From an uncultured Faecalibacterium sp. (lineage in GTDB: Bacteria; Bacillota; Clostridia; Oscillospirales; Ruminococcaceae): a stretch of DNA of 15,911 nt. The notes under the pieces were generated by a model, which did not search any database, was not told the origin of the DNA, and saw nothing but the letters and a program-made list of their open reading frames with translations. The stretch spans positions 1 to 15,911 of the forward strand of contig CAKTGS010000045.1 of NCBI GenBank assembly GCA_934561485.1, written 5' to 3'. Made by a program: the position numbers and the translations under genes. Within the stretch, counting starts at the first letter, position 1; each line of letters starts with the position of its first letter. Shown piece after piece: positions 2,562 through 15,911 of the stretch.

Positions 2562-3375
2562 TGTTTTTCAGCACCTGACGGCAGGCGGCCAGCGCGGTCT
2601 CCTTGTCCTTGGCGGTAATGAGGAAGCGGCTGGCATGGCAGAAGCTGATGCCCGGGATGCCGCTCTTCTGCTCAATGACTTCCTGCGGCTGACCCGCCCA
2701 GCTCTGGGGGAAGGGCAGCTTGGGGCGCTTGGTCTTGTGGTCGGTCACGCACTGGGCGCTCCACCCGCCGCGCTGGCTGGGGTACACCACAAACAGGGCG
2801 TCCGTCTTGTACAGGCCGTTTTTCCAGGGCAGGTAGCAGGGCAGTACCACAATGCCGTCCCGGGAGTTCTGATACGCCTGCTGCACTTTTTCGTCTGCGC
2901 GGTTCACGGCGTTGGCGCTGTCGATCTGATGTTCCAGGATCTGTTTTGCCACCGCCACCGCTTGAAAGAAGCAGGCATCCTGATCTTCCTTGGAGTCCCA
3001 CACCGGGTTGAAAAAACCAATGGCATCGCACAGGCTGTTCTGCTCGCCGGTGTTGTCGTTCAGGTCCAGCGGCTGGATGAAGTTTTCATCGATCAGCCGC
3101 GCCTGGCGCTCGCCCACAAGGCCGGGGCCGAGCACCCGCCACAGCAGGCCGAAGGCTGCATAGGGCACGCCGTTGGGGCGGCACTCCCGGGGTTCCTGGT
3201 GGTGGTCGAACATGCCAAAGCCAATGTCATACACAATGCCGTCAAAGTCATCGGGCACCGCAAAACCGCGGGTGATCTTGATATCCGGCCGCAGGATCTG
3301 CAGCAGGGCCGTGGCAAACACATCGTCTGCATGGAATTTGCCGGCATGGGTAAAGCCGTTTGCGGGAATTTTCAT
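2548..3375 (-). CDS. MYG1/UPF0160-family metal-dependent hydrolase (DHH-like)
   Basis: The 275-residue protein begins with FTHAGKFHADDVFATALL, whose H15-A-D17-D18 is the first metal-binding motif of the MYG1 family. VYDIGFGMFDHHQ follows, with D57-H58-H59 giving the DHH-type second motif. Eukaryotic MYG1 is a 3'-5' RNA exonuclease. The bacterial proteins are annotated as metal-dependent hydrolases with no settled role, so RNA or nucleotide phosphodiester hydrolysis is an inference. I chose the ATG at 3375 because GAGG lies 8 bases upstream. An in-frame ATG at 3393 (MNEVPFM) would leave almost no leader after the promoter at 3408-3436 and has no ribosome site. It is the first gene of a two-gene operon with the overlapping GIY-YIG gene. 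Confidence 0.88.
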   Translation of the reverse strand: MKIPANGFTHAGKFHADDVFATALLQILRPDIKITRGFAVPDDFDGIVYDIGFGMFDHHQEPRECRPNGVPYAAFGLLWRVLGPGLVGERQARLIDENFIQPLDLNDNTGEQNSLCDAIGFFNPVWDSKEDQDACFFQAVAVAKQILEHQIDSANAVNRADEKVQQAYQNSRDGIVVLPCYLPWKNGLYKTDALFVVYPSQRGGWSAQCVTDHKTKRPKLPFPQSWAGQPQEVIEQKSGIPGISFCHASRFLITAKDKETALAACRQVLKNNGRI

Positions 3376-3407
3376 GAAAGGTACCTCATTCATCCATATT
3401 TGATACC

Positions 3408-3436
3408 AGTATAGCACACTTTGCGGCGGGGGACAA
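3408..3436 (-). promoter_or_regulatory. Promoter of the MYG1-like/GIY-YIG operon
   Basis: On the minus strand the -35 is TTGTCC (3431-3436), followed by a 17-base spacer and TATACT (3408-3413). The predicted start is near 3402, giving a leader of about 27 bases ahead of the ATG at 3375. Confidence 0.7.
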
Positions 3437-3450
3437 ACACCACCACCAAA

Positions 3451-3486
3451 AAAGAAACAGCATCCCGCCGGAAAACGGGATGCTGT
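3451..3486 (-). terminator. Left-end terminator of the antisense/small-ORF module
   Basis: A perfect 11-bp stem (3457-3467 with 3476-3486, ACAGCATCCCG) has an 8-base loop. On the minus strand it is followed by TTTCTTTTTTGG; on the plus strand there is no T run. It therefore stops minus-strand transcripts coming from 3500-3800. No protein gene on that strand needs it, which supports a minus-strand RNA there. It also insulates the next operon's promoter. Confidence 0.8.
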
Positions 3487-3500
3487 GCTGTCGAAATGCC

Positions 3501-3529
3501 TTGCCTTTTGGCATATCCTGTGTTATTTT
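3501..3529 (+). promoter_or_regulatory. Probable promoter of the 27-codon ORF
   Basis: TTGCCT (3501-3506), a 17-base spacer, then TATTTT (3524-3529) directly preceded by TGT, an extended -10. The start would be near 3535, exactly at a 6-bp hairpin (TGCCGC 3535-3540 with GCGGCA 3552-3557), so the transcript would begin with a 5' stem-loop. Confidence 0.5.
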
Positions 3530-3587
3530 ATAAGTGCCGCTCTTTTCAAGCGCGGCAGGGACACTGCATACAACGGCAGGCGGTTGG

Positions 3588-3613
3588 CTCCCACTTCCGA
3601 AAGGAGGTGAGAG
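3588..3613 (+). promoter_or_regulatory. Hairpin hiding the ribosome binding site of the 27-codon ORF
   Basis: CACTTCC (3592-3598) pairs with GGAGGTG (3603-3609) across a GAAA tetraloop (one G-U pair). After one mismatch the stem continues with CTC (3588-3590) and GAG (3611-3613). The buried GGAGGTGAG is an almost ideal Shine-Dalgarno, seven bases before the ATG. In the folded RNA, initiation would be strongly reduced, as in many type I toxin mRNAs. Confidence 0.65.
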
Positions 3614-3615
3614 AG

Positions 3616-3699
3616 ATGCCCATTACTTTGACGTTCCATATTTTTGGACTTGTTTTCACAATCAAGGTAAAAAGCGAAAACCGCCACCGGGCAGGGTGA
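3616..3699 (+). CDS. 27-residue hydrophobic, basic-tailed peptide (possible type I toxin or regulated small protein)
   Basis: The peptide is MPITLTFHIFGLVFTIKVK followed by SENRHRAG. Residues 3-18 are almost all hydrophobic or threonine, a pattern fitting a short membrane segment or an amphipathic beta strand. The last nine residues are polar and basic. Evidence for translation is the near-perfect GGAGGTGAGAGAG leader at 3603-3615. The last eight codons and the stop form a terminator-type hairpin (3676-3707), so peptide and RNA structure share the same bases. A near-consensus promoter on the opposite strand (3767-3795) would make an antisense RNA over this end. I do not recognise a named family. 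I have an impression that short ORFs ending in ENRH occur in other gut Firmicutes, but cannot verify it. The toxin role is inferred from architecture only; a regulatory leader peptide or small membrane protein are alternatives. Confidence 0.6.
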   Translation: MPITLTFHIFGLVFTIKVKSENRHRAG

Positions 3700-3760
3700 C
3701 GGTTTTCTTTGAAAATCCAAACTCTGTAAGGGACTAACCGCTTGTCGCAGTGTCCTTTCT
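3668..3760 (-). ncRNA. Predicted antisense RNA to the 27-codon ORF
   Basis: Starting about seven bases past the -10 at 3767-3772, a minus-strand RNA would run from near 3760. It meets the hairpin 3676-3707, followed on that strand by GCTTTTTACC, giving an RNA of about 90 bases complementary to the last codons and 3' untranslated part of the ORF mRNA. Incomplete termination would give a product of about 305 bases ending at the 3451-3486 terminator and covering the whole mRNA. No credible ORF was found on this strand. The prediction rests on promoter and terminator geometry only. Confidence 0.5.
3676..3707. terminator. Terminator-like hairpin overlapping the ORF stop codon
   Basis: Bases 3676-3688 pair with 3695-3707 (12 pairs, one mismatch) around a 6-base loop. 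On the minus strand a GCTTTTTACC tract follows, a good terminator. On the plus strand only TTTG follows, so termination there should be weak. The TGA stop (3697-3699) is inside the right arm. Confidence 0.7.
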
Positions 3761-3766
3761 GTTTGT

Positions 3767-3795
3767 ATTATAACAATCCCCTCTGCCGCTGTCAA
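3767..3795 (-). promoter_or_regulatory. Near-consensus antisense promoter
   Basis: On the minus strand, TTGACA (3790-3795), a 17-base spacer, then TATAAT (3767-3772): a perfect sigma-A consensus with ideal spacing. No protein gene begins downstream of it on that strand before the terminators at 3676 and 3451, so it most likely makes a non-coding RNA. It is one of the best promoter matches in the window. Confidence 0.85.
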
Positions 3796-3819
3796 GCCTG
3801 CAGAGGGGATCCTTTTTTA
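3776..3819 (+). terminator. Right-end terminator of the small-ORF module
   Basis: A perfect 11-bp stem (3776-3786 with 3800-3810, ATCCCCTCTGC) is followed by CCTTTTTTA. It would end the plus-strand mRNA of the 27-codon ORF. Its loop and left arm contain the -35 and spacer of the antisense promoter, so the two signals are interleaved. On the minus strand the tail is poor, though it may still mark the end of the ATP-grasp transcript. Confidence 0.8.
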
Positions 3820-3834
3820 TTTCGGTTCGCAGTT

Positions 3835-5145
3835 TTATTTCCGTGCTTTGCGGGCCGGTTTCTTGGCCGGGGCGGGGACCGTTTCCGGCTCGCCCAGGGC
3901 CAACACCTGGGTCAGTTCTGCCTGCACCTTTGCGTTGGCGGCATCGGTCACGGCCAGCACATCGGAGTAGAACTGCTCCATGCCCTCACGGGTGGAGAAG
4001 TTTGCCACATACATCTGGTTGCCCATGGCACCGGACAGCGCCTCCGGGATGCGGTCCACCATGCGCATATTTTCCTGGTACTTCTGCATGATCTGCTCGT
4101 GGCTGTACACAAAGTGCTTGCCATCGCGGCGGCCGGCAAAGGCACAGTAGAAGTGCTCGCCCACCGGCATATCGGTGCCGCCAAAGGCGATCATATCGGC
4201 CCAGATTTTGTACACGTTGGTGGAGCGGGCAAAGTTGATCATATCCGGGGTAAAGCCGCCGCAGGGACGCATGTTGACTTCCAGTGCCACGATCTGACCC
4301 TTTTTGCCCATGCTGGCCTGATCCTCGGTCATGCGGAAGAACTCAAAGTGGATGAAGCGGCTCTTGACGCCAAAGCTCTTGACGGCGGCACGGCCTGCGG
4401 CGCGGGTGTCCTCGGGCAGGTCCTTGATGATGTAATAGATGGAGTTGTCGTTGTCGTTCACAATGTCCATGATGGACACGGGGCTGACGTTGCCGGCCTC
4501 AAAAATGGGGTTGCCGTTGGCGTCAATGATGGCATCGTAGCTGTTCACCTCTGCCCGGACGAACTCCTCCATGATGTACTCCACATCCGGGTGATGGGCC
4601 GTCTTTTGGACGAGGAACTTTTTCAGGTCCTCATCGCTGGACAGCTTGTGGGTATCGGATGCGCCCACGCCGTTGTCCGGCTTGACCACCACCGGGTAGC
4701 CCACCTCATCAATGAACTTTTTGCAGCCGTCAAAATCGTCCACCATGTGGTAGCGGGCGGTGGCGATGCCGGCCTTCTGATAATACTCCTTCATCTTGCT
4801 CTTGTACTTGATGCGGAGCATGTCGGAAGTCTGGAAGCCACTGGTGATGTGGAAATCGGTGCGCAGGGCAGCGTCCCGCTCCAGCCAGTATTCATTGTTG
4901 GACTCCAGCCAGTCAATGCGGCCGTGCTTGAAGGTGAGGAAGGCCACAGCGCGGTAGACCTCATCGTAGTTTTCCAGGCTGTTCACCTTGTAGTATTCGT
5001 TCAGGCTTTCCTTCAGCTCCGGCTTCAGCTCATCGTAGGGCTGGTCGCCGATGCCCAGCACATTCATGCCGTTGTTTTTCAGTTCCCGGCAGAACTGCCA
5101 GTAGTTGGTGGGAAAGTTGGGCGAAATAAAAATGAAATTCTGCAT
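3835..5145 (-). CDS. ATP-grasp superfamily ligase (carboxylate-amine ligase-like)
   Basis: The 436-residue protein belongs to the ATP-grasp superfamily, which activates a carboxylate as acyl-phosphate and couples it to an amine or thiol. The nucleotide-binding strand with the ATP lysine is YPVVVKPDNGVGAS (150-163). EEFVRAEVNSYDAI (193-206) follows, with HFEFFR (266-271). EVNMRPCGG (289-297) carries the metal-binding Glu and Asn and the phosphate-contacting Arg. The N-terminal 90 residues look like a pre-ATP-grasp domain. The tail is Pro/Ala and Lys/Arg rich (PAPAKKPARKARK). The substrate is not recognisable. I chose the ATG at 5145: GAGG sits about 12 bases upstream, and the longer frame simply reads through a repeat element. 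Two esterase genes lie upstream on the same strand, suggesting a shared pathway such as making and trimming an amide- or ester-linked compound. Confidence is high for the fold, low for function. Confidence 0.85.
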   Translation of the reverse strand: MQNFIFISPNFPTNYWQFCRELKNNGMNVLGIGDQPYDELKPELKESLNEYYKVNSLENYDEVYRAVAFLTFKHGRIDWLESNNEYWLERDAALRTDFHITSGFQTSDMLRIKYKSKMKEYYQKAGIATARYHMVDDFDGCKKFIDEVGYPVVVKPDNGVGASDTHKLSSDEDLKKFLVQKTAHHPDVEYIMEEFVRAEVNSYDAIIDANGNPIFEAGNVSPVSIMDIVNDNDNSIYYIIKDLPEDTRAAGRAAVKSFGVKSRFIHFEFFRMTEDQASMGKKGQIVALEVNMRPCGGFTPDMINFARSTNVYKIWADMIAFGGTDMPVGEHFYCAFAGRRDGKHFVYSHEQIMQKYQENMRMVDRIPEALSGAMGNQMYVANFSTREGMEQFYSDVLAVTDAANAKVQAELTQVLALGEPETVPAPAKKPARKARK

Positions 5146-5185
5146 GGTTTTATGATTCCTCTTTCCTCTATAAACCTCTATAAAA

Positions 5186-5300
5186 ACTCCCTCCGTCACG
5201 GCTTCGCCGTGCCAGTTCCCTCTGGGGGAGCCTTTTTCGTTGCGGAGAACTTTTGCAAGGCCCCTTGCCATGAGGGGGCTGTCTACGAAACCGGGGGAGT
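5186..5300. repeat. Hairpin-rich intergenic repeat, copy B
   Basis: This copy fills almost the whole gap between the first esterase and the ATP-grasp gene. It begins CTCCCTCCGTCA, carries a perfect small hairpin CACGGC-TTC-GCCGTG (5197-5211), then CCAGTTCCCTCTGGGGGAGCC, and ends CCGGGGGAG. It has the same order of parts as the copies at 193-321 and 6110-6250. No coding evidence. Confidence 0.7.
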
Positions 5301-5307
5301 CCCCTGT

Positions 5308-6066
5308 TTACTGCTGTCCCAGAATATACGGCATGTAATACGCAGTCTGTTTATACCACCAGTTCCAGTCGTGGTTGACATCGTGGCCCCACAGGTCCAC
5401 CCAGACGGGGATGTGCTTGGCCTCGAAAATGCGCTTCAGGAACCATGTGGTGTCCGGCCGCTCCCAGTCGCCCTGACCGCAGCAGATGACCGCCTTCTGG
5501 CTGCGGTACAGCTGCATGTAGGGGTGGTCCTCCGGGAAGTTCTTCATGTAATCCACAGGGGAGTTCATGTACACCAGCTCGTCCATATAGTCGCCGAAAC
5601 CGTAGTGGGCAGTGTAGATGCCGCTGAGAGCCAGGCACCCGCAGAACACGTCCGGGCGGCGCAGATACAGGTTCACCGCGTGGGTAGCACCCAGGCTGCA
5701 GCCAAAGGCAATGACGCCGGGCAGGTCGGCCCAGCCGTTGCGCTCTTTGGCCATGTACTGGATCTTGGGCACGGCTTCGTCCACAATGTAATGCAGCCAC
5801 TGCTCATACCGGCGGATGCGCCAGTAGGGGTTGCCCTGGGAGTCCGACCAGGTCTCCTGGTCCAGCGTGTCGATGGAGATCACCATGATCTGGCCGGACT
5901 CGATCCAGGGTGCCAGGGTATCGTTCATGTGAAAATTTTCAAAGTCGTAAAAGTGGCCGTCCTGGCAGGGGATGTACAGCATCGGGCGGCCGGCATGACC
6001 GTAGATCTTGCACTCCATATCCCGGCCAAGGGCAGGGCTGTAATCCTTGAAATACTGCATTTCCAT
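5308..6066 (-). CDS. Esterase-D-like alpha/beta hydrolase
   Basis: The 252-residue cytoplasmic protein has an alpha/beta-hydrolase fold of the putative-esterase family (PF00756 type). The nucleophile elbow is FGCSLGATHA (121-130) with Ser124. D200 or D205 in GQGDWERPDT and H228 or H232 in WGHDVNHDWNWW are in the right order to complete the triad. There is no signal peptide. I chose the ATG at 6066 because AAGGAGG lies at 6074-6080. The longer frame has no ribosome site. Family members hydrolyse small esters, S-formylglutathione, mycolyl or feruloyl esters and siderophore esters; the substrate here is unknown. The neighbour upstream (6265-7035) is a second, clearly different member, and the ATP-grasp ligase is downstream. 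A possible promoter (TTGACT 6118-6123, TAAAAA 6096-6101) borrows its -35 from the end of repeat copy C. Confidence 0.87.
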   Translation of the reverse strand: MEMQYFKDYSPALGRDMECKIYGHAGRPMLYIPCQDGHFYDFENFHMNDTLAPWIESGQIMVISIDTLDQETWSDSQGNPYWRIRRYEQWLHYIVDEAVPKIQYMAKERNGWADLPGVIAFGCSLGATHAVNLYLRRPDVFCGCLALSGIYTAHYGFGDYMDELVYMNSPVDYMKNFPEDHPYMQLYRSQKAVICCGQGDWERPDTTWFLKRIFEAKHIPVWVDLWGHDVNHDWNWWYKQTAYYMPYILGQQ

Positions 6067-14315: not shown

Positions 14316-15911
14316 TCAGCATTCTTTCTTCTCTTTCAAATAATACTTTCTTGCACAGCCTTGTTTTTGGCCTTCGATTATTTCTTCACTGGAAAGCTTC
14401 TGAAGAATACGATACGCTTGTCCCCTCGTAAAGCCGCACAGCTCTTGCACCTTTTGGTTGGTGATCCACGGCTTATGCTGCAGATACTCCATGATCCGGC
14501 TTTTTGCCTGAATCTGGCTGACTGTCTTATCCTGCACATAGGCCACATCGGTTTTCACCGTTTCGTAAACCTTGAGAGACAGCATATAGGTCTTGCCGTT
14601 GAGTTCCAGAAGCCCCTCGTCCCGGAGGCTGTTCAGAACCTTGTGGGCATTGTCGTCAGTTTCCTGAATCGTCTTTGCCGCCTGCTTCAGGGTAATTTTC
14701 TGATGTTCCCGGAGATAGTGCAGAATCATCAGTTCCGACAGCGTGAACATCTTGGAACGCCTGTCCTGCGTCTCCGCGATAAAATGCACGAAGTTCTGAT
14801 TTTCCATCGTGCTGCGAAGGGTCAGCCGCACAGAGTTGGGCGTGCTGGCGTACTCCGGGTAGGGTTTGCCCTCGGTGAGCATACTCTGGAACATGATGTC
14901 CACACCCTGCCCGGAACGCTGCACATACTTCAGGTGCTGAAGGGTCATGGCGATCAGCTTATTCCGGGGAATGGACTGGTGGGTGATGATGTTGCTTTCG
15001 TTGATGTCCCCCGGAAAGCCGCCGGGGTTCTCAATCACGATCTTTGTGGGGTAGTGCTTGACGTAGATTGGTGCCATGTCCTCATAGGAGCGGTGCGCCA
15101 GCGCATTCAGCAGAGCCTCCTGAAAAACCGCTTCGGAGAAATCGTACACCTCCAGCCGGAACAGCCCCACCTGCACATTGGTCAGGCGGTTATAGGTACG
15201 GATGCGCTCGGTCAGCTTATCCAGAATCGAGATCACCGGCTCCTGCATATCCATGCGGTTGTCGTATTCCGTCTGCGCTTCGTCGCTGTAATGGAGGTAG
15301 ATCACCTCTGCCTGCGGCAGCAGCCGTGCAATAGACGCCGCCTTGCCCACAAACAGCAGCCCTGCCACCGTCACACGCACTTCTTCCTTGTCCATGCGGA
15401 TCAGGTTCAGGTTGTCCAGAAAGGTGGTATCTGCCAAGTCCGGCAGGGCAGAGCCTGCATCCCGAATCCGCAGCTTCTCTTTCAGGCGGTACACTTCCAG
15501 CAGGTCAATGTCGCTTTCGGTTGCGCCCTCCACGATCTTTGCCGAAAAGTCCGGGTTATCGGCAGGGGAGTACACATCGTTTGCCGGGTAGTAAGGCTTT
15601 GTCACGTTCCCCAGCCGTCTGTAATAGATGCCGCCGGTGGTGGCAACATGAGAATTGGATTTCTCCACCGATACCACCAGCACCACGCCGTCAGAGGTTT
15701 CCACCGGCTCTATTTCGGTAAACAGGCTGGGCCGGGTCATATCGTAGATGGCTTCCATCAGTGCCTGCGGATCGCTCTTGGGGCAGCCCGTAATGGTGCC
15801 GTCATCTTCCACGCCAAACAGCAGAACGCCGCCCTTTGTATTTGCCAGCGCAACCGCACTTTTCACCGCAAGGTCTTTCCGCTGCCGGTAGTCCTTGCAC
15901 TTCACCCACGA
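14316..15911 (-). CDS. Schlafen/AlbA_2-domain putative regulator or helicase-like protein (N-terminus outside the window)
   Basis: 531 codons are visible and the frame is open to the right edge, so the start is missing, probably by about 10-30 residues. The N-terminal AlbA_2 (Schlafen) domain shows AVKSAVALANTKGGVLLFGV followed by EDDGTITG. The middle has the GHKL-ATPase-like region of this family, with FQEALLNALAHRSYE, KIVIENPGGFPG and QRSGQGVDIMFQSM. The C-terminal 180 residues contain winged-helix-like segments (LSELMILHYLREHQKITLKQ; ITNQKVQELCGFTRGQAYRI). Such proteins are annotated as transcriptional regulators or ATP-dependent DNA helicase-like and are frequent in accessory DNA; some Schlafen-domain proteins are linked to phage defence. 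Two helix-turn-helix segments suggest DNA binding. No partner gene is visible in the window, so defence is only a possibility. It ends at the TGA at 14318-14316. Confidence 0.88.
   Translation of the reverse strand, partial: SWVKCKDYRQRKDLAVKSAVALANTKGGVLLFGVEDDGTITGCPKSDPQALMEAIYDMTRPSLFTEIEPVETSDGVVLVVSVEKSNSHVATTGGIYYRRLGNVTKPYYPANDVYSPADNPDFSAKIVEGATESDIDLLEVYRLKEKLRIRDAGSALPDLADTTFLDNLNLIRMDKEEVRVTVAGLLFVGKAASIARLLPQAEVIYLHYSDEAQTEYDNRMDMQEPVISILDKLTERIRTYNRLTNVQVGLFRLEVYDFSEAVFQEALLNALAHRSYEDMAPIYVKHYPTKIVIENPGGFPGDINESNIITHQSIPRNKLIAMTLQHLKYVQRSGQGVDIMFQSMLTEGKPYPEYASTPNSVRLTLRSTMENQNFVHFIAETQDRRSKMFTLSELMILHYLREHQKITLKQAAKTIQETDDNAHKVLNSLRDEGLLELNGKTYMLSLKVYETVKTDVAYVQDKTVSQIQAKSRIMEYLQHKPWITNQKVQELCGFTRGQAYRILQKLSSEEIIEGQKQGCARKYYLKEKKEC

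Follow-up and report, generated by a model that had tools for sequence, protein, structure and literature searches.

A putative chromosomal type I toxin-antitoxin module of Faecalibacterium with a predicted 5'-3' clamp in the toxin mRNA

The 15,911-nucleotide stretch of Faecalibacterium DNA analysed here, referred to as the window, carries a small convergent locus that is best read as a chromosomal type I toxin-antitoxin module working like BsrG/SR4 of Bacillus, a reading to which we assign a probability of roughly 0.77. A preliminary description of the same DNA had proposed a type I-like pair of a small ORF and a converging antisense RNA, and all parts named in it were located in the sequence. 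The proposal is borne out by the signature of coding selection on the ORF, by an antisense promoter that comes close to the consensus in 136 of 143 modules, by covarying hairpins and by relatives in which holin-like toxin peptides lie opposite the same RNA device. Since the module is conserved in 13 full relatives, a chance origin is unlikely. That the peptide is toxic and that the antisense RNA neutralises it is inferred. Two features were absent from the preliminary description, namely a leader segment (3559–3585) complementary to 3736–3755 and the dispensability of the last seven ORF codons.

On either side of the ORF is a minus-strand gene, one belonging to the MYG1 family and the other encoding an ATP-grasp protein. 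Outward terminators had been proposed at either end of the module and both are present. On the MYG1 side, a minus-strand terminator (3486–3457), consisting of a 13-pair stem followed by TTCTTTTTTG, marks the boundary. The other end is formed by an outer terminator on the plus strand (3776–3818; stem 3776–3786/3800–3810, T tract 3813–3818; −24.8 kcal/mol), which probably constitutes the 3' end of a long toxin mRNA, recurs in the predicted mRNA fold of 3532–3818 and, as the preliminary description had it, is interleaved with the opposite promoter, namely with the antisense −35 element; a simple terminator scan with loops of up to 8 nucleotides did not list it. The best relatives of the ATP-grasp gene are 93–94% identical and come from Faecalibacterium, and none of 80 ATP-grasp loci compared by blastn contains the module. 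The MYG1 gene is also found in 8 of the 23 ATP-grasp loci whose neighbours were listed. The interval between the two genes (window 3376–3837) is very variable in Faecalibacterium, ranging from about 130 nt in locus L009 to 3 kb in locus L006. Elsewhere in the window, the protein encoded at 14316–15905 on the minus strand gave partial PADLOC matches to argonaute-associated and Fic models, the best with an E-value of 2.3e-15; they probably reflect domains in common.

The ORF on the plus strand runs from an ATG at 3616–3618 to a TGA at 3697–3699 and encodes the probable toxin, a peptide of 27 residues (MPITLTFHIFGLVFTIKVKSENRHRAG), as had been described. Its core, MPITLTFHxFG, is found in 12 of the 13 full Faecalibacterium relatives, the remaining one (L103) carrying the related MRITFHIGEFTITIIVKKR. 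Eight of these peptides have 20 residues, one has 19 and four have 27, so that the last seven residues, whose codons form part of the terminator hairpin, are optional. Values of pN/pS are 0.28 for 18 MPITLTFH-type sequences and 0.18 for 27 MRITxHIG-type sequences, and in the former set 17 of 18 third codon positions vary, compared with 11 first and 5 second positions. Judged from this substitution pattern, the ORF peptide is under purifying selection, and its 27 residues are below the limit of 60 for type I toxins.

Structural information comes from an AlphaFold model of the peptide of relative L217 (30 residues, 33 homologues), the window peptide being too short to fold alone. The model is a β-hairpin with strands at residues 2–7 and 10–15, with a mean pLDDT of 92 for the first block of ten residues and 82 for the second, and a pTM of 0.29. 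The β moment exceeds the α moment in 50 of 50 peptides of this β-type and in 15 of 79 others, the latter including a few spurious ORFs. The mean hydrophobicity of the best 17-residue stretch is 1.18 for β-type peptides versus 2.32 for the others. Membrane-acting type I toxins are described as α-helical in the review PMC8309996, and cytosolic type I toxins exist as well. By these predictions, the β-type peptide is different from the known helical type I toxins and has no α-helical transmembrane segment. The window peptide is probably an amphipathic cationic β-hairpin toxin; as β-type peptides are far less hydrophobic than the others, an action on the membrane is only a guess. The window peptide has no match in Pfam, including Hol_Tox (PF16935), and the β-hairpin type as such matches no Pfam or NCBIfam family. 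Searches of the PDB and PADLOC returned no match for the peptide, and a scan of 33 of the 34 peptide members against PHROGs gave a best E-value of only 0.013. Set A5 comprises 34 of the 49 listed peptides and set A6 comprises 57 of the 60 available β-type rows.

Upstream of the ORF, a probable sense promoter (TTGCCT-17-TATTTT with an extended −10 TG, 3501–3529, plus strand) matches the consensus at 8 of 12 positions by eye and lies in a region that was aligned in the 13 Faecalibacterium relatives. The predicted transcript starts with a 5'-end hairpin (3535–3557), and a GAAA-capped hairpin (3588–3613) sequesters the ribosome site GGAGGTG. Both had been pointed out in the preliminary description and both appear in the minimum free energy (MFE) fold of 3535–3719, which has a z-score of −3.67 and was equalled in stability by none of 200 shuffled sequences. 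The full predicted mRNA (3532–3818) has a folding energy of −123.4 kcal/mol; shuffled sequences average −82.7 kcal/mol, which gives a z-score of −7.83. Among relatives, the stem sequence of the 5'-end hairpin differs while, by eye, its pairing is mostly kept; L097 has no such hairpin. An RNAalifold consensus of leader and ORF alone yielded little covariation (1 of 24 pairs). When the region complementary to the antisense RNA is covered, the predicted ribosome-site hairpin grows from 6.42 to 8.98 pairs on average; among 145 modules, 102 gain one or more pairs and 5 lose one or more. The corresponding hairpin of the window has 7.7 predicted pairs when the mRNA is free and 10.9 with the antisense region covered.

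The putative antitoxin is an antisense RNA of about 92 nt on the minus strand (3760–3669), which begins with a 5' hairpin (GGACACUGCGACAAGCGGUUAGUCC) and, being one of the 17 Faecalibacterium antisense RNAs from which model R1 was built, scores 82.8 bits with that model. A weak match to R1 at 2154–2241 on the plus strand of the window (21.6 bits, E 0.0088) is probably due to chance. Upstream of the antisense RNA lies the perfect promoter of the preliminary description, TTGACA-17-TATAAT (3767–3795, minus strand), which matches the consensus at 12 of 12 positions and has a TG before the −10 element. Antisense promoters match at a mean of 11.41 of 12 positions, compared with 7.30 after shuffling, and reach at least 10 in the 136 modules mentioned above. 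The mean for sense promoters is 9.59, with at least 10 matches in 79 modules, and in the window the sense promoter is the weaker of the two by sequence. The minus strand from 3760 to 3655 folds with a z-score of −3.92, and double changes occur in 4 of 20 pairs of the antisense 5' hairpin and terminator among 17 sequences. By sequence, the predicted antisense RNA overlaps the toxin mRNA and possesses a promoter and a terminator of its own, the arrangement by which type I systems are recognised. In Rfam, it has no match at the gathering cut-off, a match to psRNA2 lying far below it.

The antisense terminator is a hairpin over the ORF end and the stop codon (3707–3676, minus strand) with a U tail at 3673–3669, in agreement with the preliminary description, which had in addition pointed to the shared terminator region of type I loci such as par/Fst. 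A U-tract test was applied to 146 modules, 64 of which have no stem by the rule used, leaving 82. With maximal stems, 52 of these 82 modules show a U tract for the antisense direction and 15 for the sense direction; with stems shortened to 7 pairs, the counts rise to 77 and 59, and the window hairpin then counts for both directions. By this comparison, the stop-codon hairpin favours termination of the antisense RNA over that of the mRNA, for which it is possibly a weaker terminator. Since U tracts flank the window hairpin on both sides under the looser rule, part of the toxin mRNAs may terminate at it. An outer terminator in the sense direction was detected in only 41 of 145 modules, with 15.2 expected from simple shuffles.

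The leader segment between the two hairpins, X (3559–3585, plus strand), consists of GGACACTGC (3559–3567) and GGCAGGCGGTT (3575–3585). Its counterpart X' (3736–3755, plus strand) consists of AACCGCTTGTC (3736–3746) and GCAGTGTCC (3747–3755), is situated just inside the antisense start and is the complement of the 5' part of the antisense RNA. Pairing of X with X' would clamp the 5' and 3' parts of the toxin mRNA together, and in the predicted window mRNA this clamp is present in both the MFE and the centroid structure. X pairs with the X' of its own module at −43.5 kcal/mol on average and with foreign X' at −32.6 kcal/mol, own pairing being better in 74 of 76 modules and matched by none of 5000 permutations. 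In a second set of 74 modules the values are −41.0 and −29.5 kcal/mol, with own pairing better in 69 and again 0 of 5000 permutations; this set consists of best-scoring loci, still holds two spurious ones (L252 and L256) and is biased because order and class loci are mixed in it with viral contigs found by peptide patterns. For 70 of 142 modules, drawn at random, the clamp residual is −11.42, compared with +0.36 to −1.40 for control region pairs. Two of the control signals are small but non-zero, 2 of 2000 permutations being as low for leader/3' flank and 7 of 2000 for 5' flank/X'.

In an alignment of 57 β-type modules, helix 1 of the clamp is 91.9% paired with double changes in 8 of 8 pairs, and helix 2 is 96.0% paired and has double changes at 5 of its 11 pairs. 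Pairing in the same alignment is only 69.1% for the ribosome-site helix as drawn and 90.1% for the terminator. Over the whole structure, 139 double-change cells are found versus 41 after shuffling. Departures of X from the complement of X' are of GU-type and AC-type in a ratio of 218:93, counted after masking of a conserved motif, compared with 872:686 in the cross control. This bias for GU over AC argues for selection on a sense-strand RNA that holds both X and X', and the covariation between X and X' implies that at least some mRNAs should read through the stop-codon hairpin. A pairing in trans of the two RNA 5' ends was set aside, since leader and antisense 5' end show little co-variation; their residual is −0.65, a value reached or undercut by 142 of 5000 permutations, whereas the cis residual is −10.76. 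The clamp was also considered as an opener of the ribosome site and rejected in this role, the site being predicted to stay closed with or without X' (0.20 unpaired in the window in both cases). Some ribosome-site values near 0.80 in this comparison are an artefact, caused by the motif GGAAG being picked first.

Taken as a BsrG/SR4-like system, the module would operate as follows. A toxin mRNA of about 285 nt (about 3532–3818) would fold shut; a shorter version, terminated at the hairpin over the stop codon, may occur as well. The antisense RNA of about 92 nt, present in excess, would pair with the 3' part of the mRNA comprising the ORF end, the hairpin and X'. This pairing would free the leader, allow the ribosome-site hairpin to grow from about 8 to 11 pairs and mark the duplex for RNase III-type decay. 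Once the antisense RNA is exhausted, the short cationic β-hairpin peptide would be made and would probably damage the membrane.

The layout resembles that of BsrG/SR4 and TxpA/RatA of Bacillus subtilis, where a toxin mRNA (294 nt) and an antisense RNA likewise converge and overlap at their 3' ends. In the former system, SR4 is reported to lengthen the short ribosome-site hairpin of bsrG from 4 to 8 bp (PMC7430163), which parallels the antisense-driven lengthening predicted here for 102 of 145 modules. A 5'-3' pairing is also predicted for the bsrG mRNA of phage SPBc2 (L287 12627–12914) in MFE and centroid structures. Its duplex energy, obtained with the best 3' window picked, is −41.5 versus a shuffled mean of −23.0, the minimum of the shuffles, reached by at least 1 of 300, being −43.0. 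In contrast to BsrG/SR4, the antisense RNA of the window has about half the length of the 180-nt SR4, and the encoded peptide belongs to the β-type. The Rfam model of BsrG (RF01412) does not match the window module; conversely, the wider antisense model R3 misses the bsrG locus in L287, where RF01412 matches bsrG and the sole R3 match (15.3 bits) lies elsewhere. Long-distance 5'-3' interactions in the full-length mRNA together with local ribosome-site hairpins have been described for aapA/IsoA of Helicobacter pylori and for hok/Sok (PMC6733600). The module shares this interaction, here deduced from covariation in a predicted mRNA, and differs in that 3' trimming opens the ribosome site of those systems, whereas the site is predicted here to remain closed; by the family scans made, the peptides are unrelated. 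Convergent overlapping RNAs encoding small peptides, several of them on prophages, are likewise found in CD2517.1-RCd8, CD2907.1-RCd9 and other type I systems of Clostridioides difficile, whose toxins, by description, differ in having 34–53 residues and a predicted transmembrane N-terminus (PMC6563280 and PMC7699646).

Ten genomes and then 31 genomes of the genus were searched for relatives. The 13 full relatives come from 10 of the 31 genomes, with one or two full copies of the window type in each, and one further genome contains the antisense half only. None of five tested neighbour proteins of the window occurs in the 3-kb loci around the 13 full relatives. Among the pairs compared, the sites of L081/L082/L096, of L083/L098/L105 and of L102/L106 are shared. 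Several additional copies lack the toxin half. L086 is identical to L083 on both flanks and is shorter by about 194 nt, the toxin half. Both flanks of L081 recur in L090 and L089, where about 200 nt of other sequence occupy the place of the toxin half. The two sites involved point to perhaps two loss events. Hairpins kept in homologous loci without the ORF had been named in the preliminary description as a pattern that would speak against it, and these three antisense-only loci represent this pattern in part. As the ORF is under purifying selection where present, we read them as toxin loss with retention of the putative antitoxin. Of 25 matches to R1 with at least 60 bits, 6 are without an intact toxin (L117, L168, L115 at 1187, L169, L171 and L173). 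Of 25 matches to R2, the model of the toxin half, 2 are without an antisense match: L146, which has no antisense half and a toxin ORF broken by a stop, and L148, in which the antisense half is gone and the toxin ORF apparently intact. This direction of loss is consistent with an antitoxin that has to persist longer than its toxin, but few cases are involved and L148 is a genuine exception. In the Faecalibacterium genome G001, a module at C11:239850 is accompanied by three weaker R3 matches of 37–39 bits on contigs C66 and C11, which are perhaps modules with other peptides.

Beyond the genus, R1 matched 89 of 247 genomes of the family at E ≤0.01, many of them so weakly that chance may account for the match, and R2 matched 13 of the 247. 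With R3, matches at E ≤1e-4 were obtained in 156 of 394 genomes of the order to which Faecalibacterium belongs and in 94 of 391 genomes of the class, the E-values of the antisense models being rough and some genomes belonging to both samples. Reading the strand opposite to 103 antisense matches gave 76 modules with an ORF, 18 matches having none by rule and 9 ORFs being spurious or frame-broken by eye. For 77 order and class matches (79 minus two reverse-strand overlaps), 57 ORFs are plausible, 17 matches have none and 3 are spurious. By a rough motif rule, in which the labels Ibs-like and holin-like were coined here, the 146 distinct modules comprise 62 with β-type peptides, 66 with holin-like basic-tailed peptides, 11 with Ibs-like peptides and 7 with others. 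Ten peptides of relatives were scanned with Hol_Tox: one holin-like peptide barely passed the cut-off (23.5 versus 23.3 bits) and four matched below it. The same holin-like peptide weakly resembles the type I toxin PepG1 (20.1 bits, cut-off 70). In relatives, peptides resembling Hol_Tox take the place of the toxin in this RNA device; the window peptide does not match this family.

Arrays of modules were observed in L179 (four copies), L271, L242 and L118/L119, with differing peptide types within about 0.3–0.8 kb in L242 and L118/L119. Two peptide patterns retrieved 22 viral contigs, in most of which R3 matches the strand opposite to the ORF. In L218, a β-type module (5201–5293) is situated within a cluster of phage tail genes, between minor-tail (PF10145) and tail-tube (PF06488) genes. 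The module of L220 (2354–2562) adjoins the gene of an MmeI-type restriction-modification enzyme (2611–5364, minus strand). The phage collection gave weak matches only, among which that to the human-fecal phage record MT835905.1 is a real module, and the plasmid collection gave no match. Searches of CC-licensed literature listed no paper on this family.

The comparison drawn in the preliminary description was with par/Fst, in which one bidirectional terminator serves both RNAs and pairing proceeds through 5' repeats and terminator. This model holds for the convergent layout, the hairpin over the stop codon, possibly used by both RNAs, and the resemblance between elements close to the 5' ends of the two RNAs. 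By a generous rule, 56 of 82 modules could have a terminator that works in both directions, and par also has a ribosome-site hairpin. The model fails for the repeats, which are inverted in the DNA here and direct (DRa/DRb) in par (locus layout after PMC8167048). Moreover, co-variation in trans is almost lacking, whereas pairing in cis beyond the hairpin covaries, the peptide is unrelated, and none of the module peptides scanned matched Fst in Pfam or NCBIfam. A par/Fst-type locus is accordingly an improbable reading, and because of the 5'-3' pairing of the mRNA, BsrG/SR4 is the closer model.

Hardly more probable is a small protein under antisense control whose function is an ordinary one without toxicity, such as that of a signal or a membrane regulator. 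Conservation and selection alone do not imply toxicity, and the β-type peptide is only moderately hydrophobic; yet patchy presence, tandem arrays, carriage by phages, loss of the ORF with the antisense RNA kept, and the use of the same RNA device opposite holin-like toxin peptides all speak against it. A repetitive mobile element of MITE-like, inverted-repeat type with an incidental ORF would explain X and X' as well as the occurrence at several different sites. It is very improbable, given the purifying selection on the ORF, the G-U over A-C bias, which points to RNA pairing and not to DNA repeats, the one or two full copies per genome and the sites common to several genomes.

With the type I reading preferred, the module looks like one member of a large unnamed family of a known kind of toxin-antitoxin system, its RNA device being present in numerous Clostridia and in certain phages. 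Odds are about even that a single inherited RNA control chassis, made up of the 5'-3' clamped mRNA and the X-hairpin antisense RNA, is combined in this family with interchangeable peptides, among them an amphipathic cationic β-hairpin of about 20 residues unlike the α-helical membrane toxins. If true, Clostridia and their phages would harbour a large, apparently unnamed type I toxin-antitoxin family, a β-hairpin class would be added to membrane toxins described as helical, and the natural toxin swaps under one RNA controller would allow tests of antisense control and of self-closure of the mRNA.
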